Positions 28,103 through 40,929 of a stretch of DNA of 64,000 nt are shown piece by piece. Within the stretch, counting starts at the first letter, position 1. Each line of letters opens with the position of its first letter. The translations under genes were made by a program, and so were the position numbers. The DNA comes from Sinorhizobium psoraleae (lineage in GTDB: Bacteria; Pseudomonadota; Alphaproteobacteria; Rhizobiales; Rhizobiaceae), in NCBI RefSeq assembly GCF_013283645.1, contig NZ_JABEKV010000006.1, positions 124,001 through 188,000 on the forward strand, written 5' to 3'. The notes beneath the pieces were generated by a model. The model had not been told where the DNA came from. It did no database searches and saw only the letters and a program-made list of their open reading frames with translations.

Positions 28103-28400
28103 CTATGAGCCAACGGGATGCGCAACTTGCCCCGCCGTCGAGCGGGGTCTTTCTTGAATCGTAGCCCAACCAAACAACGTCGCATTATCCGCCCGCTCCC
28201 CGATCACCTTGAACGAAGAATGCCTGAACCTACCATCGTCGGTCCAGGCGCGATGCTCGACCTCTGCGACGATGCTGCGACGCTCCCCCCAATGCCCTGG
28301 GTGAAACCCTCCTGATGTCTCGCTGAATCCATTCGCCGAAAAAGGACGAGCCACCGGTTCGACCGTCGAAAATCCCTGATCGAACTGCGTTCGCATCCTC
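28103..28400 (-). pseudogene. Possible remnant of an ATP-dependent DNA ligase C-terminus
   Basis: The minus frame contains RRSIVAEVEHRAWTDDGRFR followed by HSSFKVIGERADNATLFGW. Blocks of the form (L/I)VAEVE.RAWT.DG.LRH.SFKG.RE are characteristic of the OB-fold end of LigD/LigC-type ATP-dependent DNA ligases. The catalytic lysine domain is absent and no start or plausible upstream frame exists. It abuts the gamma-carbonic anhydrase stop codon. The identification relies on one motif block. Confidence 0.4.
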
Positions 28401-28961
28401 TCAGAAGTCATTCCTCAGCTTCCGATAGTCCCGAGCGTGGCCGACATTCGTCCGCGCGACGTGCTCGGAAAATGCCGTGACGTCGACTGTCACCTGCGGA
28501 ATGCCGGCGAGATCGGAATCGGAGTGCACAGTTGTGGTGGAAGGAACGTGGAATCCAGCCGGGAGATGGCAGCCTTCGACCACAGAGTTGTGCCGGACCG
28601 CCGCTCCATTCCCGACAGTGCAATTGAACAGGACTGAATTGAAGCCGACGAACACCTCGTCGCCGATCGTACAGGGGCCATGAATAATTGACCGATGCGC
28701 GATCGACGAGTGCGATCCGATCGTCACCGCCTCTCCTGACTTCGAATGGATCACGACGCCGTCCTGGATATTCGTACCCCTTCCGATGCGAATAGGCTCC
28801 AGGTTGCCGGCTTCGTCCGTTTCTTCCGCTCGGATCACGGCGTAGGGGCCGACAAACACGTCATCCTCAATAATCACTAGCCCGCAGATGATTGCGGTTG
28901 GATCGACAAAGGCGCTCTCGGCCACACGTGGCCAATCGCCCCGCGGATTACGGCGAATCAT
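28401..28961 (-). CDS. Gamma-class carbonic anhydrase-like protein
   Basis: 186 residues of left-handed beta-helix hexapeptide repeats. Metal ligands of gamma-carbonic anhydrases are visible: His in GVVIHSKSG and the paired His in SSIAHRSIIHG. The start at 28961 (MIRRNPRGDWPRV) has GGGAG 8 bases upstream; two further in-frame ATGs lie at 28976 and 29000. It is divergent from the COG0523 GTPase at 29094 and shares the palindrome at 29056. Gamma-CA paralogues are known members of zinc-starvation regulons because the fold can use iron or cobalt instead of zinc. That role is inferred here. Confidence 0.82.
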   Translation of the reverse strand: MIRRNPRGDWPRVAESAFVDPTAIICGLVIIEDDVFVGPYAVIRAEETDEAGNLEPIRIGRGTNIQDGVVIHSKSGEAVTIGSHSSIAHRSIIHGPCTIGDEVFVGFNSVLFNCTVGNGAAVRHNSVVEGCHLPAGFHVPSTTTVHSDSDLAGIPQVTVDVTAFSEHVARTNVGHARDYRKLRNDF

Positions 28962-29055
28962 GCAGTTCACTCCCATTTCCTGGTCGGAGCCCCGGACCAC
29001 ACTATGCTGATCACTCGGACCCTTGACTTGGAATTGCCATAAACGCTACAAGAAT

Positions 29056-29078
29056 GCAATGTTATAACGTTTCATTGC
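29056..29078. promoter_or_regulatory. Putative Zur box 1
   Basis: GCAATG-TTATAACGTTT-CATTGC is a 23-bp inverted repeat between the divergent carbonic anhydrase and COG0523 genes, 15 bases before the ATG at 29094. Three related sites follow at 37740, 42459 and 43954. AT-rich GTTATAAC-type palindromes are known for alphaproteobacterial Zur. Confidence 0.75.
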
Positions 29079-29093
29079 TCGCAGGAACGCTCC

Positions 29094-30326
29094 ATGTCGC
29101 AAACGAATCCGATCGATAACCGCCTTCCCGTTACCGTTCTTTCCGGCTTCCTTGGCGCCGGCAAGACGACCCTTCTCAATCACGTCCTCAACAATCGCGA
29201 AGGCCGGCGCGTCGCGGTCATCGTCAACGACATGAGTGAAGTGAATATCGACGCCGATCTCGTTCGCCAGGGCGGCGCAAATCTCTCCAGAACCGACGAG
29301 AAGCTGGTCGAAATGACCAATGGCTGCATCTGCTGCACACTTCGCGACGATCTGCTCCAGGAAGTCCGCCGCCTCAGTGAGAGTGGGCGCTTCGACTACC
29401 TTCTCATCGAAGGCACTGGCATCGCCGAACCGCTGCCCGTCGCCAGCACCTTCTCTTTCCGGGACGAGGAGGGCCGCAGCCTGTCCGACATCACCCGACT
29501 CGACACAATGGTGACCGTCGTCGACGCGGCAAGCCTTTTGAAGGACTACGGCTCAAACGACTTTCTGCGCGATCGTGGCGAAACCGCCGGCGACGGCGAC
29601 GAACGGACGATCGTCGATCTCCTGGTCGAACAGATTGAGTTCGCCGACGTCATCGTGATCAACAAGGTCTCCGAGGTTTCCCCCGAACAGCGTGCCCTGA
29701 TCCGCAAGGTGGTGACGGCCCTCAACGCCGATGCCCGGATCGTCGAAACCGATTTCGGTCGCGCCCCACTGGGCGACATCCTCGACACCGGGCTGTTCAG
29801 CGAAGAGAAGGCTGACCGTCATCCGCTCTGGTTCAAGGAACTTTATGGCTTCAAGGACCATGTCCCCGAAACCGAGGAGTACGGCATCCAGAGCTTCGTC
29901 TATCGCGCGCGCCGTCCATTCCATCCCATGACCTTCAACACCTTCATCAACCAGACTTGGCCAGGCCTGATCCGCGCAAAAGGGCATTTCTGGCTTGCGA
30001 CTCGACCTGACTGGGTCGGCGAATTTTCGCTCGCCGGCGCCATCGCCCGCTCGATTCCCCTGGGGCGCTGGTGGGCCGCGGTTCCGAAACATCGCTGGCC
30101 CGATCATCCGGAGTGGCAGCGCGTTCTCAAGCGCAACTGGCATGACATATGGGGCGATCGCCGCCAGGAGCTGGTCTTCATCGGCACCGGCATGGATGAG
30201 GCCAAGATCCGCGCCGCGCTCAATGCTTGCCTTGTTGGCGAGTCCGACAACGAGCGCTTCGAACCGAAGGCTTGGCGGAACCGCCCTGATCCGTTCCCGG
30301 CATGGGAGCCTGCCAATGCGACCTGA
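29094..30326 (+). CDS. COG0523 GTPase, putative zinc metallochaperone (ZigA/YciC-like)
   Basis: 410 residues of the G3E/CobW family. Walker [14 protein letters not shown] near residue 18, metal-binding CxCC motif in [14 protein letters not shown] near 75, [11 protein letters not shown], and the guanine-specificity motif NKVSE. The C-terminal CobW_C domain contains [20 protein letters not shown] and [16 protein letters not shown]. Family members hydrolyse GTP and are proposed to hand zinc to client proteins under starvation. A Zur box sits directly upstream, so induction by zinc limitation is expected. A second, shorter COG0523 protein is encoded at 38386. Confidence 0.92.
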
Positions 30327-30617
30327 ACCCAGCATCGTGCCGCCATCGCCGCCGCCTCGCTGCCGGACCGCGAAGCGCCTAGCCCGTGACATCCCTTCTC
30401 GACAGTCCCGGCAGCATATTGCAGCTGACGCTCAACAGGGATGTCTCTTCGGCGCTCGACAGAGTGCCTGTCGACCAACTCTTCACGGCTACGCCATTTC
30501 AACGAGATGGATCTTGAGCCCACATGGCTGCGCGACTGGCTCTTCAACGACGTGTTCTTTCTCGCGCGCTTGGCAATGGGAAAATAGAGGCGGTGTCCTG
30601 CGCCAAAGCGCGATGGG
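30327..30617 (+). other. Intergenic region, possibly a decayed gene
   Basis: Overlapping the GTPase end, a frame begins ATGCGACCTGAACCC at 30317 but breaks. Another frame gives SLLDSPGSILQLTLNRDVSS, and a third reads LEPTWLRDWLFNDVFFLARL. These look like one degraded coding sequence following the GTPase. DUF1826 genes often occupy this place in zinc regulons, but the match is too weak to call. Confidence 0.3.
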
Positions 30618-31346
30618 ATGGAGATGAACCAGATCTCTTATGCCGGAAGAGCGACGGCCGAGTATTTTGCAGGACTACTCAATGATTTCTCCAAGGCACG
30701 CGGTGTTTACGACCTGGAGGATATTCTTGGGCGCGTTCTTTTGGCTTATAACTTACAGCAGGTGACCTGCGTAAGTTCGTGGGGTGAGACCAACATAGCA
30801 ATATCTTCCCCCCACATCGCCGTTTCGTCGAGCCTATTGCAGAGCCAATCTGCGATGACGGGCACGGACCAGCCGACGTTGGCCCTCGGCGGGCAGGAAT
30901 TCAGGCGAGCTCGCCTCAATCTCTTCACCGACATCTCGGGTAGCCGAAGGATTGGGCGAATGGGCTTGCGATTTCGCCTTTGTGAATTGGACGGCACGAT
31001 CTCCACCTTCTTGGCAACCACTGATTTCTCAGAAAGAGAGTGGGATCTACTGAAGGCAATCTATCTTCGAGACCTTTACGTGATCGCCAGCATCACGCAT
31101 CGCAAGCTGGCCTCGTTCGTTGGGAACAACCGGAAGCAGCTTTTCTCTCCACGAGAACGGGAATGCTTGCAGGCGGTTGCGGCTGGTCGACGGCCCAAGC
31201 AAATTGCGGGTGATCTTGAGATATCGGAGCATGCGGTTCGCTTGTACTTGAAACGTGCACGTAGAAAGCTCAGCTCAAGAAATATTACCGAGGCCGTAAG
31301 TAGATCTCTCCAGAATGGGCATATAGAGAATCTATATCGCCGTTAG
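30618..31346 (+). CDS. LuxR-type transcriptional regulator
   Basis: 242 residues. The C-terminal GerE/LuxR helix-turn-helix is clear: LFSPRERECLQAVAAGRRPK then QIAGDLEISEHAVRLYLKRA and RRKLSSRNITEAV. The N-terminal 165 residues resemble an autoinducer-binding-type alpha/beta domain in length, but I cannot see the conserved Trp/Tyr/Asp acyl-homoserine-lactone pocket with confidence, so it may be a solo regulator responding to something else. It is 245 bases upstream of the small peptide gene, and a perfect-arm palindrome lies between. No luxI is present in the window. An ATG at 30624 is an alternative start. Confidence 0.82.
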   Translation: MEMNQISYAGRATAEYFAGLLNDFSKARGVYDLEDILGRVLLAYNLQQVTCVSSWGETNIAISSPHIAVSSSLLQSQSAMTGTDQPTLALGGQEFRRARLNLFTDISGSRRIGRMGLRFRLCELDGTISTFLATTDFSEREWDLLKAIYLRDLYVIASITHRKLASFVGNNRKQLFSPRERECLQAVAAGRRPKQIAGDLEISEHAVRLYLKRARRKLSSRNITEAVSRSLQNGHIENLYRR

Positions 31347-31444
31347 AAAACCCCTCGCGGTTTGCCCGACGCGGTTTTGGATCACTTCCGATGGCCATCC
31401 TCCAAGCAAATCGAGTGGCTTGCTCAACTGCGTAAAGCCGATTG

Positions 31445-31460
31445 ATCCCAAGTTTGGGAT
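31445..31460. promoter_or_regulatory. Palindrome upstream of the peptide gene
   Basis: ATCCCAA-GT-TTGGGAT, 7-base arms with a 2-base centre, about 130 bases upstream of the peptide ATG and 100 bases after the LuxR-type gene. Its size fits a dimeric regulator such as the adjacent LuxR-type protein; binding is inferred. Confidence 0.45.
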
Positions 31461-31591
31461 ATTGAGAGCACGGCCCAATTCCCTACTCTTCGAGATGCCG
31501 TCAGCATCCTTCGGACATGCAAGTTACCGATCCGATGGCTTGGCGGCGAGACGATGCACTTGCATCACAACCAACATCGAAGGAATGAGCA

Positions 31592-31735
31592 ATGAGCAAG
31601 AAGTCAAGTCCCGGCGATGGAACGTTCGCCAATGGCGTCAAAGGCATGTCCCCGGGCGGAGCGGACAAGGTGTCCGTTGCAGCGACTGTTGGCAACTTGA
31701 TCGCCGGCGTAGCCCGGGTCTGGCACTGGAAGTAA
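31592..31735 (+). CDS. 47-residue peptide, candidate RiPP precursor
   Basis: Small open frame with AAGGA 6 bases before its ATG. The N-terminal half is polar and glycine-rich (MSKKSSPGDGTFANGVKGMS). The second half, SVAATVGNLIAGVARVWHWK, is hydrophobic and ends in an aromatic, basic tail. The stop codon is only 3 bases before the GTG of the asparagine-synthetase-like gene, in the same frame, so the two are translationally coupled. Thr32-Val33-Gly34 recalls the Thr(-2)/Gly(1) cleavage site of lasso precursors, but residues 7-9 of that putative core (V, A, R) are not acidic, so a canonical lasso ring is not supported. No cysteine is present. Function is inferred from context only. Confidence 0.55.
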   Translation: MSKKSSPGDGTFANGVKGMSPGGADKVSVAATVGNLIAGVARVWHWK

Positions 31736-31738
31736 TCA

Positions 31739-33058
31739 GTGCGAACAATCGCACCCCGCTATCGTGGCGCGTGCGGGCGTCTCTACAGAGATCCCCTCCT
31801 CGCCGCTAGCGGGGTGCCCACGATCAGTCTCGACGGTACCGCCTGTCTATTAGCAAATCCCTCGCTTCTCGGGGAAGTCACCCCCGAACATTTGTGGAAG
31901 GATACATGGCTAGAATGGCCAAATCCGACCGCTACGGAGACGCCCGGATCACTGTCGCGAGCGTTTCAACTGGCTCTCAGCGATCTTTGCTTTGGTCATT
32001 CGACGATCGCCGTTCAAACATCAGGTGGCCTCGATAGCCTTGCCGTCCTCTACCACACTTGCAGGCTGTTTCCTGATCGCCGTGTCATTTCCGTTTGCGG
32101 CGACGTGCTCGATGACAACGGGACCTCGACGCTCGCTGTTGTTCAGCAACTGATAAAGAGCCTTCGTTTGACCTGCGAGCTTGTTGCCGTACATCGCAAA
32201 GATTGGACTCGCTGGCCAGCCTGGTCTCCCCATGGGCCATTTCGCACAGCCTCGCCGGAAGCTCATATGGCGATGGTTGCCTGCGCAAAACGCTTGGGAG
32301 CAACCACACTCTTATCGGGCGACGGTTCGGACGAATTGGTCGCTGCCCACCGCTTCATGACTAAGGAAATCGGCCAACAGTTGGGGCTCCGCGCGGCTCT
32401 ACAATATCTGCGGGACGCCCGACATACCGGACCAGGCGTTGCTGGAGAGATTCTTGCACTTGCGGCAAATTTTGCGCCCCCGCGTTCGCGGATTAAAATG
32501 TACTGGGCAGTCAACTGGCCGGACTGGTGCGAACCAAGGGCTGCTGCAATTTTGACGCCACGTTATCGAAGTGTAGCGACGGATTGGGCGTCGGATTGGT
32601 CGAAAGCGACACTCAAGGATCATGTGCTGAATAGACGGAGTTGGGCAGAGGCCGAGGCGTATGATGCCTGGTGGCCTCAACCATATTTGCCGCCAGCAGA
32701 CGATCTGGAGGAAGGATCACCATTCCTGCACGAGGCATTTGTCGCTACCGCTTTAGGTCAGCCGCTTGCAAGAAAGTACTCACCAGCTCCATTAACGGAA
32801 TACCATCGATTTAAGGTGTCTGTAATCGAGTTGTTCGATGAAGACGATCGCCGCTATCTTCCCAGAGAAAAGCAGTATTTCAAATCTCTGGCCGCCGAGA
32901 TTGATGATGTACCCGGCGACGCACCCTTTGCCGTCGATTTGGGACTGTTTGATCAGAATGCGCTCAAACGAGAGACAGACACGGCAACCAGAAAACTGGC
33001 ACGCTCAGTCGAACGCTGGCTGAGAGACGCGTCCGAACAAGGCGTATTGTTCACCTAA
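31739..33058 (+). CDS. Asparagine-synthetase-like ATP-dependent amide synthetase
   Basis: 439 residues. The ATP-pyrophosphatase signature VQTSGGLDSLAVLYHT is at about residues 92-107 and the second motif LLSGDGSDELVAAHRF near 197. The C-terminal half matches the Asn_synthase domain as used by lasso-peptide cyclases and beta-lactam synthetases, which adenylate a carboxylate and form an amide. The N-terminal glutaminase-like domain is reduced to about 90 residues (GRLYRDPLLAASGVPTISLD is reminiscent of its end) and there is no N-terminal Cys, so ammonia from glutamine is not used. Starts at GTG with GGAAG 6 bases upstream inside the peptide gene. Product inferred: modification of the upstream peptide. 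Confidence 0.8.
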   Translation: MRTIAPRYRGACGRLYRDPLLAASGVPTISLDGTACLLANPSLLGEVTPEHLWKDTWLEWPNPTATETPGSLSRAFQLALSDLCFGHSTIAVQTSGGLDSLAVLYHTCRLFPDRRVISVCGDVLDDNGTSTLAVVQQLIKSLRLTCELVAVHRKDWTRWPAWSPHGPFRTASPEAHMAMVACAKRLGATTLLSGDGSDELVAAHRFMTKEIGQQLGLRAALQYLRDARHTGPGVAGEILALAANFAPPRSRIKMYWAVNWPDWCEPRAAAILTPRYRSVATDWASDWSKATLKDHVLNRRSWAEAEAYDAWWPQPYLPPADDLEEGSPFLHEAFVATALGQPLARKYSPAPLTEYHRFKVSVIELFDEDDRRYLPREKQYFKSLAAEIDDVPGDAPFAVDLGLFDQNALKRETDTATRKLARSVERWLRDASEQGVLFT

Positions 33059-33918
33059 CGCTTGAAATCATAGGAGAACAGACGATCGATCTCCTTGAAA
33101 CCAACGCTGTCGTAAAGGCGGTTTGCTGCTGTCCTGTTCCTCTCGCTGCCGGGGACTCTATCGTCGTCGTCAACATACAGGATTATCTCGCCTGCTCCAT
33201 GCGAACGAAGTTGCTTTATCGCTGTTCCGAGTAGCTTCCTTCCAACACCTTGTCCTCTGTATTCTTTCTCGACCTCTATGAGCCAGATTACGCCGATTCC
33301 TTGAAACAGCGAACCGGCGCTTACAAAACCGATCTCCTTGTCCCCTTCTTGGGCGCTGATACGCCAACCATGGACTGATTCATCGACCTTGATGACTGCA
33401 CCCTCCAGTGTGGAGAGTTCTCTCGAGGGAGTCGTGAAATGCATGTATCGCCAAAGGTCCGTCGCTGAGAACCCTTTGCCGACCAAAGTGGCGTGTGTCG
33501 ATGGTCGCGCGGCGACGGGTAGAGCCTCCAAACCAGAGGTGAGCGCGGTGGCGAATTGAAAAGCTTGGATCGTCGGTGCCGTCGTGCTCGAAAGGAACTT
33601 GTCGACCAAGGCCGAGATGGCGTCATCGTTCTCGCGGGCGTGAAGCCAGAGCAGGTGGGCTATTTCTCCATTCTGATGCTCTGCATATGACATGACGCCG
33701 GGCACCTTGGATCCGCGCTCAAGAACCTCAATGACCGGAGACTTCAGTTCCATCCACCAGCCCGAGTCCACCTCGGACCGCCCACTTTGCGCCAACCGCA
33801 ACATGCTAAGATCGCAGTATGGTTGGCCGATGAGCCTATCGGCATTGATCAGTTCCAGCACTGCCGCAGCATGCAGGTCTTCATTGTAGCTAACTATCTG
33901 ATTCAAGCTCTTACCCAT
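33055..33918 (-). CDS. GNAT-family acetyltransferase, two-domain
   Basis: 287 residues. The C-terminal half is a standard GNAT domain: IWLIEVEKEYRGQGVGRKLL carries the acetyl-CoA motif (RGQGVG), followed by NRTAANRLYDSVGF. The N-terminal half looks like a degenerate second GNAT-type domain, as in MccE- or mycothiol-synthase-like tandem proteins. The ATG at 33918 has AGAGGTGG 6 bases upstream; the frame is open to 33948. It ends tail-to-tail with the synthetase gene (4-base overlap) and follows the ABC exporter on the minus strand. It could acetylate the peptide, for maturation or self-immunity; inferred. Confidence 0.8.
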   Translation of the reverse strand: MGKSLNQIVSYNEDLHAAAVLELINADRLIGQPYCDLSMLRLAQSGRSEVDSGWWMELKSPVIEVLERGSKVPGVMSYAEHQNGEIAHLLWLHARENDDAISALVDKFLSSTTAPTIQAFQFATALTSGLEALPVAARPSTHATLVGKGFSATDLWRYMHFTTPSRELSTLEGAVIKVDESVHGWRISAQEGDKEIGFVSAGSLFQGIGVIWLIEVEKEYRGQGVGRKLLGTAIKQLRSHGAGEIILYVDDDDRVPGSERNRTAANRLYDSVGFKEIDRLFSYDFKR

Positions 33919-33977
33919 GAATACCACCTCTTCCAGAGAGCGAGACAACCTGAATCTCGCTTTGAGCAGTCCGTTGG

Positions 33978-35693
33978 CTAACGAACGAATGTTTTCCTTT
34001 GCGTCTTGCTGTTCGCTTGCGGGTCTGTGGTCTTGCGGTCGAGTTCGATGACCGTATCCGTATCTGCGATGACCGTTCTGCGATGTGTGATCGCGAGGAC
34101 CGTCACGGCAGTACTAAGCATGCGGATGTGATCCATGATGTCGCGCTCCGTCGCCTCATCGAGCGCCGAACTCGCCTCGTCGAGAAAGAGGATCGCCGGA
34201 TTGCCGTAGAGCGCACGGGCAATGGCGACACGCTGCCGCTCACCACCCGACAGCTTCAAACCCCGCTCGCCGACCTTTGTCTCTAGACCGTCGGGCAAGG
34301 CTTCGATGAAGGATAGGATCGCAGCCTTTTCGATGGCACTGCGCAATCGCGTCTCGTCCCGTGGGCGGCCGAGCAGAATGTTGTCCGCCAGACTTTCATT
34401 GAGCAACACGACGTCCTGTGGCACGACGGCGACCGCGCTGTACCAGTCGGCGCGTTCGATGCAGGCGAGATTGACGCCGTCTACGCGGATTTGGCCTGAG
34501 TTAGGTTCGATCGACCTCCATGCGAGCTTGAAGAGAGTCGATTTGCCCGAGCCGGTTTCGCCGACGATGAAGGTAATGCCGCCGCGCTGTGCCGTGAAGT
34601 TGACGCTGTTGACACCTCGGGCATTGTCGTAGGCGTAGGCAACATCCTCGAAGTCCATGCGTCCTTCGCTGGGGACGAAAGTCGGTGCATGCGCGCCCTG
34701 TCGCTCTTCCGGAGCGTCCCACATGGCGGCCAGCGGTGCCAGCGATGCGCGCGATCTGGTGACATCGTCGATGGCATGAGCGATCATCTCAAAGGGCATA
34801 TTGAGCTGGAGCAACAAGGTGTTGAACAGCACTATACCGCCAATTGTCAGTTCACCGGTCGCGTAGCGCGGTAGCAGTAGCAGGAACGTGACGGCAAACT
34901 GGATCGTCAGACCCAGGCCGAGAATAGCGACATAGCCTACGCGTCTCAGCGCATAGGCACGCCAGTTGTCGCGCACCTCTTTTGCTTTCGTGTTAAAGCG
35001 TCCGCTCAGCCAGCCATGGCTACTAAAATATCTCAGCGTCTCCATGGCGTTCATAGCATTGCCGACGAAACGAGCATTCTCCTGACCAGCTGCGACGGCG
35101 GCGTTGAGGAGCGCGCGAGTGCGTCGGTTGGCAAGGATGGTGAGTGCGATCGAGCCTGCTCCATACGCAATGACGATTGCGACCACCTCAATTTTGATCA
35201 ATGCGCCGAGGGTGATAAGCGAGAGCAGGATCTGGGTGACGCCCGGAATGAAGACGATGAGGGCCAGTTGCACCAATATCGTCAACGCATCGCGCCCCTT
35301 CTCGCCCGCTGCCTGGATTTCGGCCGGGTTATTCTCGATGAAGAAGACGGCGGTCTTCTTCAGCAGGCGTTCGAAAAAGCGCCTGCTGGTGATAAAGCCC
35401 AGATTCTCAGCGCTCATGAAGGAGAGATACTGCACCATGCGCTGGAGCGCCGACGACACGCCGAGTAGCACAGCGTAAGTAACAAATCCCCAGATCAACG
35501 CGCTGACGGCCCCAACATGCGGCAGGCTGTCGACAAGACGTGAGAAGAGGTACGGGGCAGCCACACTCGAGGCACTTGAAAGAAAGACCACCGCTGCAAC
35601 CACCATGAGGGTCCAACGATCGGACGTCCAATACGCGCGAAGTATCTCGGAAATCGGGGCGTTGAAAGTGACCGTTTGCCTCGATTGGTTCAT
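33978..35693 (-). CDS. ABC exporter, fused membrane and ATPase domains
   Basis: 571 residues. An N-terminal ABC_membrane domain of six predicted helices (residues about 25-320) is fused to one nucleotide-binding domain: Walker A FIVGETGSGKSTLFKLAW, Q-loop VVPQDVV, signature LKLSGGERQRVAIARA, Walker B AILFLDEASSALDEAT, and the H-loop in AITHRRT. The size and layout match homodimeric exporters such as McjD of lasso-peptide clusters and Atm1/MsbA. There is no N-terminal C39 peptidase domain. It precedes the GNAT gene in a two-gene minus-strand unit. Export of the peptide product or self-protection is the likely role; inferred. Confidence 0.9.
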   Translation of the reverse strand: MNQSRQTVTFNAPISEILRAYWTSDRWTLMVVAAVVFLSSASSVAAPYLFSRLVDSLPHVGAVSALIWGFVTYAVLLGVSSALQRMVQYLSFMSAENLGFITSRRFFERLLKKTAVFFIENNPAEIQAAGEKGRDALTILVQLALIVFIPGVTQILLSLITLGALIKIEVVAIVIAYGAGSIALTILANRRTRALLNAAVAAGQENARFVGNAMNAMETLRYFSSHGWLSGRFNTKAKEVRDNWRAYALRRVGYVAILGLGLTIQFAVTFLLLLPRYATGELTIGGIVLFNTLLLQLNMPFEMIAHAIDDVTRSRASLAPLAAMWDAPEERQGAHAPTFVPSEGRMDFEDVAYAYDNARGVNSVNFTAQRGGITFIVGETGSGKSTLFKLAWRSIEPNSGQIRVDGVNLACIERADWYSAVAVVPQDVVLLNESLADNILLGRPRDETRLRSAIEKAAILSFIEALPDGLETKVGERGLKLSGGERQRVAIARALYGNPAILFLDEASSALDEATERDIMDHIRMLSTAVTVLAITHRRTVIADTDTVIELDRKTTDPQANSKTQRKTFVR

Positions 35694-36583: not shown

Positions 36584-37067
36584 TCAGAGGCGGGTGGGGT
36601 TTGGTGCGTCCCCATAGACGGCCACTGGATCGAATACCTTCTCCGTCTCCTCGAAGGCGAGGGGGATCGGGGTCTCCCCGAGAGGTTCAACGGGGATGGA
36701 GCGATAGAAGCAGGATCGGTAGCCGACATGGCAACTCGCGTCACCCGCGACTTCGACCCTGAGCCAGATCGCGTCCTGGTCATCGTCCACGCGGATCTGC
36801 ACGACTCTCTGAGACAGCCCGCTCGTAGCGCCCTTGTGCCATAGGCATTGCCGGCTACGGCTCCAATAATGGGCTTCGCCCGTCTCTATCGTGCGCATTC
36901 ATCACGCCCATCATCAGGACCTCGCCCGATGTGGCGTCTGTCGTCACCACAGGGATCAAACCGTCCGCGTCGAACCTGGGCGCAAGAAATGCACCTTCTT
37001 CGACGGCTTCGACCGAGAGCCGCGGCCCGAATTGAACAGGACGGCGGGTGTTGAGTGGGCTGGTCAT
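36584..37067 (-). pseudogene. hisI: hisI (phosphoribosyl-AMP cyclohydrolase) paralogue, frameshifted
   Basis: The gene starts [20 protein letters not shown] at 37067, overlapping the folE stop (ATGA), and is in frame through VLMMGVMNA. It then jumps frame near 36898 to [20 protein letters not shown], followed by [24 protein letters not shown] and a stop at 36584. The family reads [15 protein letters not shown] at the junction, so roughly 11-14 bases are deleted. HisI is a zinc enzyme of histidine synthesis, and its paralogues recur in Zur regulons. As read it is inactive. Confidence 0.8.
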
Positions 37068-37708
37068 CCGAACGTCTCCCGCGATCCTGAGACCAGGGAG
37101 AGGAAGTCTCGCTTGAGCTCCGCATCCGTTTCGAACGCGCCGGTCAACCGGCGCGTCACCATGGTGACACCGGGCTTGCGAATGCCACGTGTCGTCATGC
37201 ACATATGCGCCGCTTCGATCACCACCGCGACGCCCTTCGGCTTCAACACCTCGTTGATCGTGTCGGCGATCTGCGCCGTCAGCGTTTCCTGAATCTGAAG
37301 GCGCTTGGAATAAACCTCGATCAGCCGGGCGAGCTTGCTGATTCCGACGACGCGATTCGAAGGCACATAGGCGACATGCGCCTTGCCAATGATCGGGACG
37401 ATGTGGTGCTCACAGTGCGATTCCAGGCGAACGTCGCGCAGCACAACCATGTCGCCATAGTTCTGGGTCTCCTCGAAGGTGCGGCCGAGCAGCTCGACCG
37501 GGTCGGCGCGATAGCCCTCGAAAAACTCCTCATAGGCCCGCACCACGCGGTCCGGTGTGCCGACCAGACCTTCACGGTCCGGATCGTCACCCGCCCATTC
37601 AATCAGCGTTCGCACCGCTAACTCAGCAGCCTCGCGCGTCGGGCGCTTTCGAGGGGCAACAGGCGGCGCCAAGCCCGCAACGGGCTCACTCAGCATAACG
37701 TCACTCAT
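37064..37708 (-). CDS. folE: GTP cyclohydrolase I (paralogue in the zinc island)
   Basis: 214 residues. It makes dihydroneopterin triphosphate from GTP, the first step of folate/pterin synthesis. The zinc ligands of FolE type IA are all present: Cys and His in ESHCEHHI and Cys in [10 protein letters not shown]. Also visible are [15 protein letters not shown] and [12 protein letters not shown]. Zinc-regulated islands usually carry the zinc-independent FolE2, so a canonical zinc-type FolE here is unexpected; it may tolerate other metals. The Zur box at 37740 is 32 bases upstream of its ATG. It is followed by overlapping, broken hisI. Confidence 0.92.
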
Positions 37709-37739
37709 GATTTCTCCAGCACAGATTGCGCATCATCAT

Positions 37740-37761
37740 GCAATGTTATAACGTATCATTC
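37740..37761. promoter_or_regulatory. Putative Zur box 2
   Basis: GCAATGTTATAACGTATCATTC lies between folE (minus) and the Fur-family gene (plus). It shares GCAATGTTATAACGT with box 1 and so could control both directions, including autoregulation of the Fur-type gene. Confidence 0.75.
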
Positions 37762-37803
37762 AAGAGACTTTGTCGTCTCGACAAGAGCTTGTTGGAGACA
37801 TCC

Positions 37804-38303
37804 ATGGCAGAGCGCATGACGGCGCATCACCGCAGCCCCGCTTCCCACAGCATCATTGCTGCGGCGTTCGAAGCCGCCGCCAAGACATGCCGAGAACGCG
37901 GGCTCCAGTTCACAACGATACGCCGCCAGGTCATTGAGACGCTGATCAGCTCCGAACGACCACTCAGCGCCTATGAGCTGATAGATGCTCTACTGGAACC
38001 CTCGCCCGGCGTCTCACGCCGCCGACGGTTTACCGCTCGCTCGAGTATCTCCAAGAGCAGCACTTCGTCTCTCGCATTGAGAGCCGGAACGCTTTCGTGC
38101 CGTGCGCTCATCCCGATCATCCGCACGCCTGCGTGTTCTTCATCTGCGACAATTGCGGCGCCTCCCCCGAGCTCGAGGATCGCGCGGTCGCCCGCGACGC
38201 CGCCTTTATCGGATTTCAAGTCGCTCGCCGCGTCGTCGAGCTGCAGGGCACCTGCGCGACCTGTCTCTCGACCGGCGATCCTGCCCCTTCCCATCACCCG
38301 TAG
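37804..38303 (+). pseudogene. Fur/Zur-family regulator with a one-base frameshift
   Basis: Frame 1 from ATG 37804 reads CRERGLQFTTIRRQVIETLI then SSERPLSAYELIDALLEPSPGVS, the winged-helix start of Fur proteins. At about 38017-38021 the frame is lost; in the next frame PPTVYRSLEYLQEQHFVSRI continues perfectly. It goes on through CAHPDHPHACVFFICDNCG and VELQGTCATC to the stop at 38303. A single missing C in a CGCC run explains it. Cys pairs CDNC and CATC are the structural zinc site of Zur/Fur. Either a recent mutation or a base-calling error; if real, this regulator copy is dead. Confidence 0.8.
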
Positions 38304-38385
38304 GAAACCGCCCGACGGCGCAGCCGGTGATTAGCTGCACCCGCATGCGGGCTCCAGACAAACCCAAAAAGGAGATTCCTCAAAA

Positions 38386-39357
38386 ATGCAGCCCGCTTCG
38401 CCTCAGACTCCCGTCACGGTGCTCACCGGCTTTCTCGGCTCGGGAAAGACGACCCTTCTCAACCGCATCCTCACTGAGAGCCACGGCAAAAAATACGCCG
38501 TCATCGTCAACGAGTTCGGTGAGGTCGGCATCGACAACGATCTTATCGTCGACGCTGACGAAGAGATCTTCGAAATGAACAATGGCTGCATCTGCTGTAC
38601 CGTGCGCGGCGATCTGATCCGCATCATCGACGGACTCATGCGCCGCCGTGATCGCTTTGACGCCATCCTTGTCGAGACGACCGGCCTCGCCGATCCCGCG
38701 CCAGTCGCGCAGACCTTTTTCGTCGATGACGACGTCCGTTTGAAGACCAAGCTCGATTCCATTGTCACGGTCGTGGATGCCAAGCACCTGCTCGGCGAAA
38801 TCGATTCCGCTCACGAAGCCCAGGAGCAGCTCGCCTTCGCCGACACGATCCTGATCAACAAGACCGATCTGGTCTCCGCAGACGAGTTGAAGCGGGTCGA
38901 AGAACGTGTCCGCCGGATCAATCCGACGGCGACCATGCATCAAACCCAGCGCTGTGATATCGACCTAGACCAAGTGCTCGGCCGCGGCGCATTCGACCTC
39001 GATCGCGTACTGGAGATCGAGCCGGACTTCCTCGACGAGTTCCACGAGCATGAGCATGACGACCATGTCTCAAGCTTCGCGCTCGTCGCCAAGGAGCCGC
39101 TGGATCCCGAGAGATTCATGCGCTGGCTCAGCGTGATCGTACAGCATTTCGGCATGGATATCCTGCGTATGAAGGGCATCATTTCATTCAAGGACGATGA
39201 TGACCGGTTCGTGGTGCAGGCCGTCCATATGCTCCTCGACGGCGCCCATCAACGCCCGTGGAAGCCGGACGAGGAACGGGTCACGCGCCTCGTGTTCATA
39301 GGCCGAAACCTCCCGAAAGACGTCATCGAAACGGGCTTCAACGCATGCCGGGCGTAA
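38386..39357 (+). CDS. COG0523 GTPase with His-rich loop, putative metal chaperone
   Basis: 323 residues, CobW/P47K type. Walker A GFLGSGKTTLLNR near residue 15, CxCC in MNNGCICCTVRGDL, ETTGLADPAPV, and NKTD for guanine specificity. A histidine/acid-rich loop (FHEHEHDDHVSSF) near residue 220 is suited to metal binding. The CobW_C domain follows (GMDILRMKGIISFKDDDDRF). It follows the Fur-family gene by 82 bases and precedes cysS, in the same direction. It probably supplies zinc to one of the island's zinc-dependent paralogues; the client is unknown. Confidence 0.92.
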   Translation: MQPASPQTPVTVLTGFLGSGKTTLLNRILTESHGKKYAVIVNEFGEVGIDNDLIVDADEEIFEMNNGCICCTVRGDLIRIIDGLMRRRDRFDAILVETTGLADPAPVAQTFFVDDDVRLKTKLDSIVTVVDAKHLLGEIDSAHEAQEQLAFADTILINKTDLVSADELKRVEERVRRINPTATMHQTQRCDIDLDQVLGRGAFDLDRVLEIEPDFLDEFHEHEHDDHVSSFALVAKEPLDPERFMRWLSVIVQHFGMDILRMKGIISFKDDDDRFVVQAVHMLLDGAHQRPWKPDEERVTRLVFIGRNLPKDVIETGFNACRA

Positions 39358-39502
39358 TCACTGCGAGAACCCATTCAGGAACCCCGCCGCACCGGCTGGG
39401 GGGCTTCCGCCGCTTTCGGCATTTCCTTGGCGAGACGAACTGTTGCGACCTCGATTGCCGCCTCTCGTAAGGCCCACGCAGCATTTTCGACAAGGAAACA
39501 TC

Positions 39503-40870
39503 ATGTCACTCGTCCTCACCAACAGCTTCGGAGGCCAAAAAGAGTCCTTCGTTCCGCGGGATCCAAGACACATCCGCATCTATGTCTGCGGGCCGACCGT
39601 CTACAACTATGCCCATATCGGCAATGCTCGGCCCGCGGTGATCTTCGACGTTCTCGTTCGGTTGCTGCGCGACCGCTTCCCGGCGGTCACCTATGCCCGC
39701 AATTTCACCGACGTCGACGACAAGATCAACGATGCCGCCCGCGCCGCAGGCGAGGCCATCGGCTCAATCACCGAGCGCTATATCGAAGCCTACCACGCCG
39801 ACATGGCCGCGCTCGGTGTCCTCCCGCCATCGGTCGAACCCCGTGTCACCGAGCACATCCCGGAGATCATCGACCTGATCAGTCGCTTGATCGGCAAAGG
39901 CCATGCCTACGAGGTGGAAAACCACGTTCTCTATAACGTCCCGTCCTTCCCGCCCTACGGCGCGCTGTCCCGCCGCACGCTGGATGAAATGATCGCTGGC
40001 GCTCGCATCGAGGTCGCGCCCTTCAAGAAGCACCCGGCCGACTACGTCCTGTGGAAACCCTCCGCGCCCGACCTGCCGGGATGGGACAGTCCCTGGGGGC
40101 GTGGCAGGCCCGGCTGGCATATCGAATGCTCGGCGATGATCGAGCGTCATCTCGGCCCGCGGATCGACATCCATGGCGGCGGCCAGGACCTGATCTTCCC
40201 GCACCACGAAAACGAAATCGCGCAGGGGACCAGGGCGACGTATTGGCTGCACAACGGCTTCGTCTCCGTCGACGGGCGGAAAATGTCGAAGTCGCTCGGC
40301 AATGTGCTTCTCGTGCGGGATCTCCTCAGCCAGGCGCCTGGCGAGGCGATCCGCTATGCCCTTCTCACCGCGCACTACCGCCAGCCACTCGACTGGAGCG
40401 CTCGTGCTCTCCAGCAGGCCAGGCGCAGCCTCGACCGTCTGTACGCGACTCTCCGGGATCTCGGTGATGTCGCAGATGACGGCGCTGATGCGCGACCATA
40501 TCTCGAGACCTTCCGCGCCAAGCTCGATGACGATCTCAACACGCCCGCGGCCATCGCCGAACTCTTCCGTCTCGCGCGCATGGCGCAAGTCGAGCGGTCG
40601 CCGCGCATCCGCGCATCCTTGCGCGCGACCATGCTCACCGCTGGCGCTTTGCTCGGCCTGATCCAGCAACCGCCCGCCAAATGGTTCGAGCGCAACGACG
40701 GCCACACCGTCGATGAGGCCGACATCGAGCGACTGATCGCCGAACGCAACGCCGCTCGCGCAAAACGCGATTTCGTCGCCGCAGATAAGCTCCGTGACCG
40801 GCTCCATGGGCTCGGCGTCGTCGTCGAGGATCGATCCGACCGCACAATCTGGCGAAGGGCGCCGGCGTGA
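39503..40870 (+). CDS. cysS: Cysteinyl-tRNA synthetase (paralogue in the zinc island)
   Basis: 455 residues, class I synthetase charging tRNA-Cys. The signatures are HIGN (HIGH) at YAHIGNARPAVIFDVL and KMSKS at GRKMSKSLGNVL. The zinc site that recognises cysteine is retained: Cys in YVCGPTVY, Cys in HIECSAMI, and His/Glu in FPHHENE. The ATG at 39503 follows AAGGAAAC. The DALR-like anticodon region and the C-terminal LRDRLHGLGVVVEDRSDRT are complete. As a zinc enzyme its duplication in a Zur-linked island may ensure charging under zinc stress. A second chromosomal cysS is expected but is outside this window. Confidence 0.92.
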   Translation: MSLVLTNSFGGQKESFVPRDPRHIRIYVCGPTVYNYAHIGNARPAVIFDVLVRLLRDRFPAVTYARNFTDVDDKINDAARAAGEAIGSITERYIEAYHADMAALGVLPPSVEPRVTEHIPEIIDLISRLIGKGHAYEVENHVLYNVPSFPPYGALSRRTLDEMIAGARIEVAPFKKHPADYVLWKPSAPDLPGWDSPWGRGRPGWHIECSAMIERHLGPRIDIHGGGQDLIFPHHENEIAQGTRATYWLHNGFVSVDGRKMSKSLGNVLLVRDLLSQAPGEAIRYALLTAHYRQPLDWSARALQQARRSLDRLYATLRDLGDVADDGADARPYLETFRAKLDDDLNTPAAIAELFRLARMAQVERSPRIRASLRATMLTAGALLGLIQQPPAKWFERNDGHTVDEADIERLIAERNAARAKRDFVAADKLRDRLHGLGVVVEDRSDRTIWRRAPA

Positions 40871-40929
40871 CGACGACCAACAACCGCCGCGCCGCGCCTT
40901 CACGCACCCTTGCTTCTCGAGGTTTTATT

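Follow-up and report, generated by a model that had tools for sequence, protein, structure and literature searches.

The 64,000-nucleotide stretch of Sinorhizobium psoraleae DNA presented above (hereafter the window, in whose coordinates positions are given unless another record is named) raises the question of what product is made from a gene for a 47-residue peptide that lies directly before a gene for an enzyme resembling asparagine synthetase B (AsnB), and how it could be made when the leader peptide, the leader-binding protein B1 and the leader peptidase B2 of classical lasso-peptide pathways are all missing. An earlier reading made from the letters alone (the sequence-only reading) regarded positions 30618–35693 as a peptide natural-product locus, and its frame of lasso chemistry, with macrolactam closure by the AsnB-like enzyme, an acetyltransferase of the GNAT family and an exporter, proved to be the right one. 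Our analysis indicates that this is very probably an intact locus for a leaderless lasso peptide of the lariocidin/triculamin family, obtained by lateral transfer and equipped with self-protection by the GNAT and the ABC exporter, and that its product probably acts as an antibiotic by binding the ribosome. At the level of sequence, what is established is the identity of the core, the absence of a leader, the lack of a B2 protein above the cut-off, the association of precursor, short cyclase and GNAT across phyla, and a patchy distribution.

Core, follower and missing leader

The precursor gene (31592–31735, forward strand) encodes M-SKKSSPGDGTFANGVKG-MSPGGADKVSVAATVGNLIAGVARVWHWK, that is, Met1, the core and a C-terminal follower of 29 residues, a division that is our own. 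The NCBIfam model NF050022, which describes the lariocidin/triculamin lasso core domain, covers residues 1–19 and scores 44.7 bits where the curated cut-off is 27, and with an E value of 2.3e-10 the precursor is the sole match at E ≤ 1 in its own 7.43-Mb draft genome. When the model was applied to control genomes (n = 14), it gave matches below the cut-off in three and above the cut-off in none, and by these scores the 47-residue peptide is more than a chance match. The predicted mature core has 17 residues (31595–31645, forward strand) with a macrolactam between Ser1 and Asp8, as judged from an alignment of six cores, namely the present one and those of the five relatives described below, with lariocidin and triculamin. 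K3, S4, P6, G7, D8, G9, G14 and K/R16 occur in all eight cores, every one of which begins with Ser or Ala, and G17 is found in seven of the eight, including all six clusters. Asp9 of the precursor becomes core position 8 once Met1 is removed; the sequence-only reading, which placed the core after Thr32-Val33 and saw no Asp or Glu at ring positions 7–9, was therefore mistaken on this point, since the domain match puts the core at the N-terminus, with Asp at position 8. A core at the C-terminus was also considered and was rejected because there is no conservation at that end across the six clusters.

The boundary between core and follower was put after Gly17 because this residue is present in all six clusters while the next one varies, and by analogy with triculamin. 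Over the 17 core positions, 12 are identical to lariocidin and 11 to triculamin. The predicted monoisotopic mass of the 17-residue macrolactam is 1617.811; calculated in the same way, lariocidin comes to 1870.065, compared with the published 1870.06. The follower (31646–31732, forward strand) ends in the hydrophobic stretch VAATVGNLIAGVARVWHWK, as located by the alignment of relatives; its sequence diverges among members, and a hydrophobic C-terminal stretch is visible by eye in most of them.

The gene has a good ribosome-binding site, as the sequence-only reading had said: AGGA at 31581–31584 on the forward strand, read from the sequence 7 nt before the ATG. The codons before this ATG are GAA TGA GCA, so that the printed frame runs ...SKE*AMSKK..., and the in-frame TGA (31586–31588, forward strand), one codon upstream of the start, rules out an N-terminal leader and with it a hidden leader upstream of the ATG at this locus. 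Similarly, the precursors of Pseudonocardia, of a Rhodospirillaceae bacterium and of the genome labelled G1374 are preceded by an in-frame stop, and no ATG, GTG or TTG was seen by eye between this stop and the precursor start. The Amycolatopsis precursor would gain at most four residues if an ATG replaced GTG as the start, and that of genome G1253 has a frame open upstream, its start call resting on the ribosome-binding site. The core aligns to positions 19–36 only of the 36-position lariocidin model NF050021, while positions 1–18 of the 50-position triculamin model NF050031 (triculamin_pre) align with precursor residues 1–18. Judged from these alignments, the core family occurs in a leader-bearing format and a leaderless, follower-bearing format, and the present precursor is of the second. 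It was filed under the core family and as neither the triculamin nor the lariocidin equivalog, because it stays below the whole-length cut-offs of both models.

Cyclase, relatives and origin of the cluster

The cyclase gene (31739–33058, forward strand) encodes an AsnB-like ATP pyrophosphatase of 439 residues from a GTG start. The precursor ends with TAA, one codon (TCA) follows, and the GTG comes next, with both genes in the same frame, exactly the 3-base spacing that had been described earlier. The enzyme matches the Asn_synthase family PF00733 (31.5 bits, cut-off 21) and contains SGGLDS and LLSGDGSDE, yet it reaches no NCBIfam lasso-cyclase model at E ≤ 1. The ATP-binding motif SGGLDS/SGGMDS is present in six of six cyclases, as is LL(S/V)G(D/N)G(S/A)DE, whose next residue is L in five and T in Pseudonocardia. 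Identity to the relatives is 30–41%. The earlier remark that the synthetase lacks most of the glutaminase-like domain is right; no such domain was found by Pfam in the two cyclases scanned, from this locus and from Amycolatopsis. The complete cyclases of relatives have 458 (Rhodospirillaceae), 457 (Amycolatopsis) and 440 (G1253) residues, while the Pseudonocardia gene is frameshifted and that of G1374 runs off the contig end; the missing domain is not a sign of decay, because the short cyclase is common to intact relatives. The structure model of the cyclase is of low confidence (mean predicted local distance difference test score, pLDDT, of 57, with three sequences aligned), and a Foldseek search with it gave hydroxyamidotransferase TsnB9, carbapenam synthetase and AsnB as the best folds in the PDB at a template modelling score of about 0.3, matches that may be taken to support an AsnB-like core only. 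Sequence searches of the PDB with the cyclase and with the precursor returned nothing useful.

Relatives were found by two routes. With the cyclase as key, a tblastn search of 72,556 plasmid records matched five. Two of them are from Pseudonocardia (identity 35.7%, coverage 94%), and the other three are fragments from Streptomyces in which no more than 38% of the cyclase, its C-terminal part, is left; no core peptide was seen at the one of these three Streptomyces records that was examined. When 84,980 species, each represented by one genome, were scanned with two short patterns, 221 candidate stretches were obtained, which yielded two relatives, the metagenome-assembled Rhodospirillaceae bacterium ECT2AJA-110-B, with the cyclase and precursor sequences already known from the match in our class survey, and Amycolatopsis sp. 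GM8 (cyclase 39% identical, E 1e-84). With the core model as key, matches were obtained in at least 2 of 398 genomes of the phylum (the present genome and the same class match) and in at least 3 of 394 genomes in the class of Amycolatopsis (Amycolatopsis, G1253 and G1374). In all five relatives, a core peptide above the NF050022 cut-off of 27 lies directly upstream of the cyclase homologue, with a gap of -4 to +41 nt and core scores of 30.5, 29.1, 28.5, 31.4 and 27.5 bits. G1253 and G1374 were found through the peptide, so that their cyclases (39% and 41% identical) are the independent finding; the remaining three were found through the cyclase, and there it is the peptide that counts as independent. 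The cores are AKKSTPGDGAHACGVKG in Rhodospirillaceae, AAKSSPGDGSHGRGIRG in Pseudonocardia, SAKSHPGDGQHGRGVKG in Amycolatopsis, SKKSHPGDGSHGLGAKG in G1374 and SAKSNPGDGTHGRGTKG in G1253.

A GNAT homologue stands beside the cyclase in three of the five relatives: in Amycolatopsis (45.6% identical) and G1253 (44%), where it is convergent with the cyclase, and in Pseudonocardia, where it is in pieces and on the same strand; the contig of G1374 ends inside the cyclase, so that the GNAT side lies beyond the available sequence. The present locus combines sequence features of the NF050022 core family, a core above the cut-off with Asp8 and Ser or Ala at position 1 and an adjoining AsnB-like cyclase and GNAT; from this family one would further expect the product to be a threaded macrolactam that binds the 30S ribosome. 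The search for homologues of the 47-residue peptide beside AsnB genes, proposed in the sequence-only reading, found them in the five relatives. The converse observation, AsnB homologues that lack the peptide, had been named there as a refutation; the peptide is directly upstream in Rhodospirillaceae, Pseudonocardia (one of two records examined) and Amycolatopsis, and the exceptions are the truncated Streptomyces genes and a general AsnB relative, 26% identical and without such a peptide, found by scanning viral contigs with the cyclase alignment. Scans of the viral contigs with the single cyclase sequence of this locus and with the precursor alignment gave no relative.

Three observations on plasmids and flanks were made alongside. 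On the plasmid of the ant-associated Pseudonocardia sp. EC080610-09 (record L003, 7842–10534) the precursor is intact and the cyclase, the GNAT and a B2-like stretch are in pieces, and an IS110 transposase gene follows this frameshifted cluster. GNAT relatives with 28–34% identity are carried by Nonomuraea, Streptomyces sp. 3211 and Kitasatospora plasmids (L006 6001–6762, L007 6001–6777 and L008 6001–6801); in the three of four records examined, neither a cyclase match nor a core-like peptide lies within 6 kb, and these are possible stand-alone self-protection genes against lariocidin- or triculamin-type peptides. Downstream of the Rhodospirillaceae cyclase (L009, from about 9406), in the place of the GNAT, a long frame resembles by eye a serine beta-lactamase or penicillin-binding-protein-like hydrolase, possibly an alternative protection gene or one for trimming the follower.

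No B1, B2 or recognition-element gene had been seen in the sequence-only reading, and a search of the whole genome agrees with it. In the draft genome of the strain no B2 protein exceeds the cut-off, the best matches being 17.4 bits against 26 for PF13471 and 20.0 against 33 for NF033537. The latter, at C1:886721, was considered as a hidden B2 and was rejected, as it is an arginine-rich frame of 113 residues that overlaps longer frames and is not a credible gene; a second NF033537 match at C1:1784889 has 16.6 bits and is also under the cut-off. Genes for a RiPP (ribosomally synthesised and post-translationally modified peptide) recognition element, RRE, were searched for in the genome of the strain, and none but pqqD was found; this sole PqqD above the cut-off sits between PqqC- and PqqE-like frames (named by eye) and belongs to the pyrroloquinoline quinone operon. 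Of the classical lasso features, the RRE-recognised leader is excluded by the in-frame stop, and the B2 cysteine peptidase is absent at the cut-offs of PF13471 and NF033537. B1 and B2 would have no substrate to bind or cut where there is no leader, which accounts for their being missing. The Rhodospirillaceae and G1253 genomes likewise have no B2 above the cut-off.

The distribution of the locus is patchy. The cyclase was matched in one of 33 genomes of the genus, the present one counted (none in the 32 others), in at least 1 of 297 genomes of the family and in at least 2 of 385 of the class, each count including the present genome. A sister genome (G306) matches the window at 28391–30569 (about 90%) and at 36584–40926 (86%), with nothing aligned to the cluster between these flanks and no cyclase match, and a second sister genome (G257) matches 28931–30327 and 36597–37758 and not the cluster. 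The best cyclase relatives are in the class of Amycolatopsis, with 39–41% identity compared with 30% for the alphaproteobacterial one. Taken together, the occurrence in one of 33 genomes of the genus, the cluster-free sister genomes and the closer actinobacterial relatives make lateral acquisition the natural reading of these sequences.

On one side the cluster is bordered by cobW and a gene for a hexapeptide-repeat protein, on the other by folE, another cobW and a gene resembling cysS, whose name was taken from a plasmid match. A 21-bp site, GCAATGTTATAACGTWTCATT, occurs at 29056–29076, upstream of the cobW at 29094, and at 37740–37760, where it precedes the frames that lead up to the second cobW. 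None of 100 shuffles gave a match, compared with the two seen here; both copies are outside the lasso cluster and no copy is inside it. We take this site to resemble a Zur-type zinc-regulon operator, and the lasso cluster lies within an apparent zinc-starvation regulon of two cobW genes, folE, the hexapeptide-repeat gene and the cysS-like gene. Near the right edge of the cluster, 35715–35853 matches the same region of the sister genome as the DNA further right at 36584–37202, and its frame resembles by eye the start of a HisI-like frame at 36855–37202, neither being recognised by Pfam; this is perhaps a partial duplication left at the border of the island.

Accessory genes, proposed biosynthesis and its alternatives

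The arrangement of the remaining genes is as the sequence-only reading had it, according to their coordinates and Pfam matches. The GNAT gene (33055–33918, reverse strand; 287 residues from ATG; PF00583, 45.2 bits) is convergent with the cyclase gene, tail to tail, and its product probably confers self-resistance through lysine acetylation. It had been described as a tandem GNAT, and this holds for one half: the C-terminal half is recognised by Pfam (about residues 183–276), while the N-terminal half is not, and its structure model is unreliable (mean pLDDT of 52 overall, with only two sequences aligned). The ABC half-exporter (33978–35693, reverse strand; 571 residues) matches ABC_membrane (PF00664, 49 bits) and ABC_tran (PF00005, 100 bits), with no peptidase domain recognised by Pfam, and is assigned to export and immunity. 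Upstream of the precursor, a LuxR-type regulator of 242 residues (30618–31346, forward strand) matches GerE (PF00196, 53.4 bits, residues 175–228), its N-terminal domain being unrecognised by Pfam; from its position it is probably the regulator of the cluster. All five genes are open and their motifs are conserved. Promoter and terminator scans gave no excess, and no inverted repeat of note was seen upstream of the precursor gene.

From these genes a route can be proposed. The precursor would be translated without a leader, and the methionine aminopeptidase of the host would remove Met1 before Ser, freeing the amine of Ser1 at once. This step is suggested by the Ser or Ala at position 1 in all six clusters, and it would supply the amine that otherwise requires a leader peptidase. 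The cyclase would bind the precursor, with the hydrophobic follower at the C-terminus as a possible docking site, adenylate Asp8 and join it to Ser1, as in the chemistry of the family, giving an 8-residue ring around the tail. A host protease would trim the follower near Gly17, and the ABC exporter would secrete the peptide. The GNAT is expected to acetylate a ring lysine for self-protection, most likely Lys3, which is predicted as the site because it is the sole lysine kept in all eight cores; the protective role itself is assigned because self-resistance by lysine acetylation has been published for both triculamin and lariocidin (PMC13352647). Among the literature matches listed for methionine aminopeptidase and lasso peptides, none concerns lasso biosynthesis by its title.

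Several points weigh against an intact leaderless lasso-peptide locus that makes a lariocidin-like product. The lasso peptide is here a prediction from genes, no protease that would remove the follower was recognised in the locus, and the follower is poorly conserved. The core has three Lys/Arg compared with seven in lariocidin, so that uptake or target may differ, and the full-length family models stay below their cut-offs (NF050021, 31.3 bits against 40; NF050031, 20.3 against 65). By tblastn, no GNAT was found in the 17 kb around the Rhodospirillaceae cyclase, and homologues of the ABC and LuxR genes are absent from the retrieved flanks of every relative (E 1e-3). Amycolatopsis and G1374 carry B2 genes, located on contigs other than that of the cluster (C1 as against C17, and C1 and C85 as against C25, respectively), and in Pseudonocardia the GNAT is followed by two adjoining B2-like stretches in different frames, which score 18.0 and 16.8 bits where 33 would be needed; some members may therefore have had a B2-type peptidase, perhaps acting on the follower. 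In addition, the surveys may miss members, since a limited number of candidates was scored per genome (at most 5 in the family, 4 in the class and 22 in the two core-model surveys) and the species scan used two short patterns.

Three other explanations have to be set against this evidence. The sequence-only reading suggested an undescribed amide-forming RiPP family, in which the AsnB-like enzyme would act on the C-terminal part of the peptide; the last 29 residues are indeed rich in hydrophobic residues, and the cyclase lacks the usual N-terminal domain and is reached by none of the lasso-cyclase models. We regard this proposal as very improbable and the suggestion as very likely wrong, for across the six clusters it is chiefly the 17 residues following Met that are conserved, the ring Asp being invariant, while the C-terminal part diverges, and a curated model of a lasso core domain covers the N-terminus. 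Hardly better is the prospect of the other suggestion made there, a decayed lasso cluster; B1/B2 and the glutaminase-like domain would then have been lost, and no product would be made. This suggestion could draw on the genome of the strain, which contains no B2 above the cut-off and no RRE gene but pqqD, and on the visibly broken Pseudonocardia relative, in which the cyclase, the GNAT and the B2-like stretch are frameshifted. It too is very likely wrong, however, because none of the five genes of the locus is interrupted and their motifs are conserved, intact relatives have the short cyclase as well, and a leaderless precursor leaves B1 and B2 without a substrate.

A further possibility, unlikely but somewhat less so than these two, is that the leaderless lasso peptide is a signal or metal-related compound rather than an antibiotic, under the control of the LuxR-type regulator or of the flanking zinc-type genes. 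The position of the cluster between the cobW/hexapeptide-repeat and folE/cobW/cysS-like genes, the presence of a LuxR-type gene and a core that is far less cationic than lariocidin are all compatible with it. Nevertheless, the residues conserved in lariocidin and triculamin are retained, the adjacent GNAT, which has its counterpart in the self-resistance of these two peptides, suggests toxicity to the maker, and the 21-bp site has its two copies (29056 and 37740) outside the cluster. The antibiotic reading is thus preferred. Going beyond it, it may be hypothesized, at somewhat less than an even chance, that precursor and trimmed cyclase form a minimal two-gene lasso pathway: methionine aminopeptidase would replace the leader peptidase, the follower would replace leader and RRE, the glutaminase-like domain would have been dropped since no B protein is docked, the pair would have spread between Actinomycetota and Alphaproteobacteria, and the product, made by a Gram-negative bacterium, would inhibit the ribosome as a lariocidin-like peptide of weakly cationic character.

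Comparison with known lasso-peptide systems

Lariocidin, the first lasso peptide reported to act on the ribosome, has the core SKKSKPGDGKFGRGVKRG (PMC12427821) with a ring from Ser1 to Asp8, and it targets the ribosome (PMC11451635). The lrc cluster of Paenibacillus sp. M2, represented by NF050021, resembles the present locus in the 12 of 17 identical core positions, the 8-residue Ser1–Asp8 ring and the cyclase, GNAT and ABC export genes. It differs in that the lariocidin cluster has LrcB1, LrcB2, D1/D2 and the clostripain-like LrcF (PMC11451635), with the core at the C-terminal end of the model, whereas in the present locus leader and B2 are lacking, the ABC half-transporter is the only one, and nothing like LrcF is found among the five recognised genes. 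A survey by LrcC similarity reported 29 lrc-like clusters in Alpha- and Gammaproteobacteria, Bacillota and Actinomycetota (PMC11451635), so that alphaproteobacterial members as such are already in print; among the literature matches listed for rhizobia, there is no mention of lariocidin. Natural variants of lariocidin are wanted, and the present locus offers a sequence-divergent, less cationic one with a predicted mass, from an alphaproteobacterium.

Triculamin from Streptomyces (NF050031), with the core SKKSKPGDGIRGKGVRG (PMC13192320), is closer in format, because its model places the core first with about 32 more positions after it, which corresponds to a leaderless precursor with a follower; 11 of 17 core positions are identical, and self-resistance again involves lysine acetylation. 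The present precursor differs from it in matching the triculamin model over the core part only, well below its cut-off; the host here is an alphaproteobacterium, and the locus includes LuxR and ABC genes. Albusnodin-type clusters also combine a lasso pathway with an acetyltransferase, and no product was seen without albT (PMC9266682); however, the albusnodin core is different and the set of genes is the canonical A-B-C one. The albusnodin cyclase model NF033561 gives no match to the present cyclase at E ≤ 1 and only a weak one to the Rhodospirillaceae cyclase (31.7 against 300).

The microcin J25 type has an AsnB-like ATP-dependent macrolactam cyclase, the probable counterpart of the present enzyme, which belongs to the Asn_synthase family and reaches none of the NCBIfam lasso-cyclase models; McjD is a single ABC exporter like the present one. 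Unlike that type, the present locus has no leader and no B2 cysteine peptidase, its genome has an RRE only in pqqD, and its cyclase of about 440 residues lacks the N-terminal domain. The in vivo synthesis of pseudomycoidin, an otherwise leader-bearing lasso peptide, reportedly proceeds without leader and leader peptidase, and the title of that paper provides a precedent for cyclisation free of both; its core, AGPGKRLVDQVFEDEDEQGALHHS (PMC12427821), is unrelated to the present one. If the two-gene reading is true, hardly any natural route to a lasso peptide could be simpler than the one encoded here, with no leader, RRE or leader peptidase, in which a core can be encoded right after the ATG, and what a cyclase requires for threading a peptide would become directly testable. 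Beside these systems, the locus stands as a predicted further member of the already known lariocidin/triculamin core family, with a leaderless, B-free layout.

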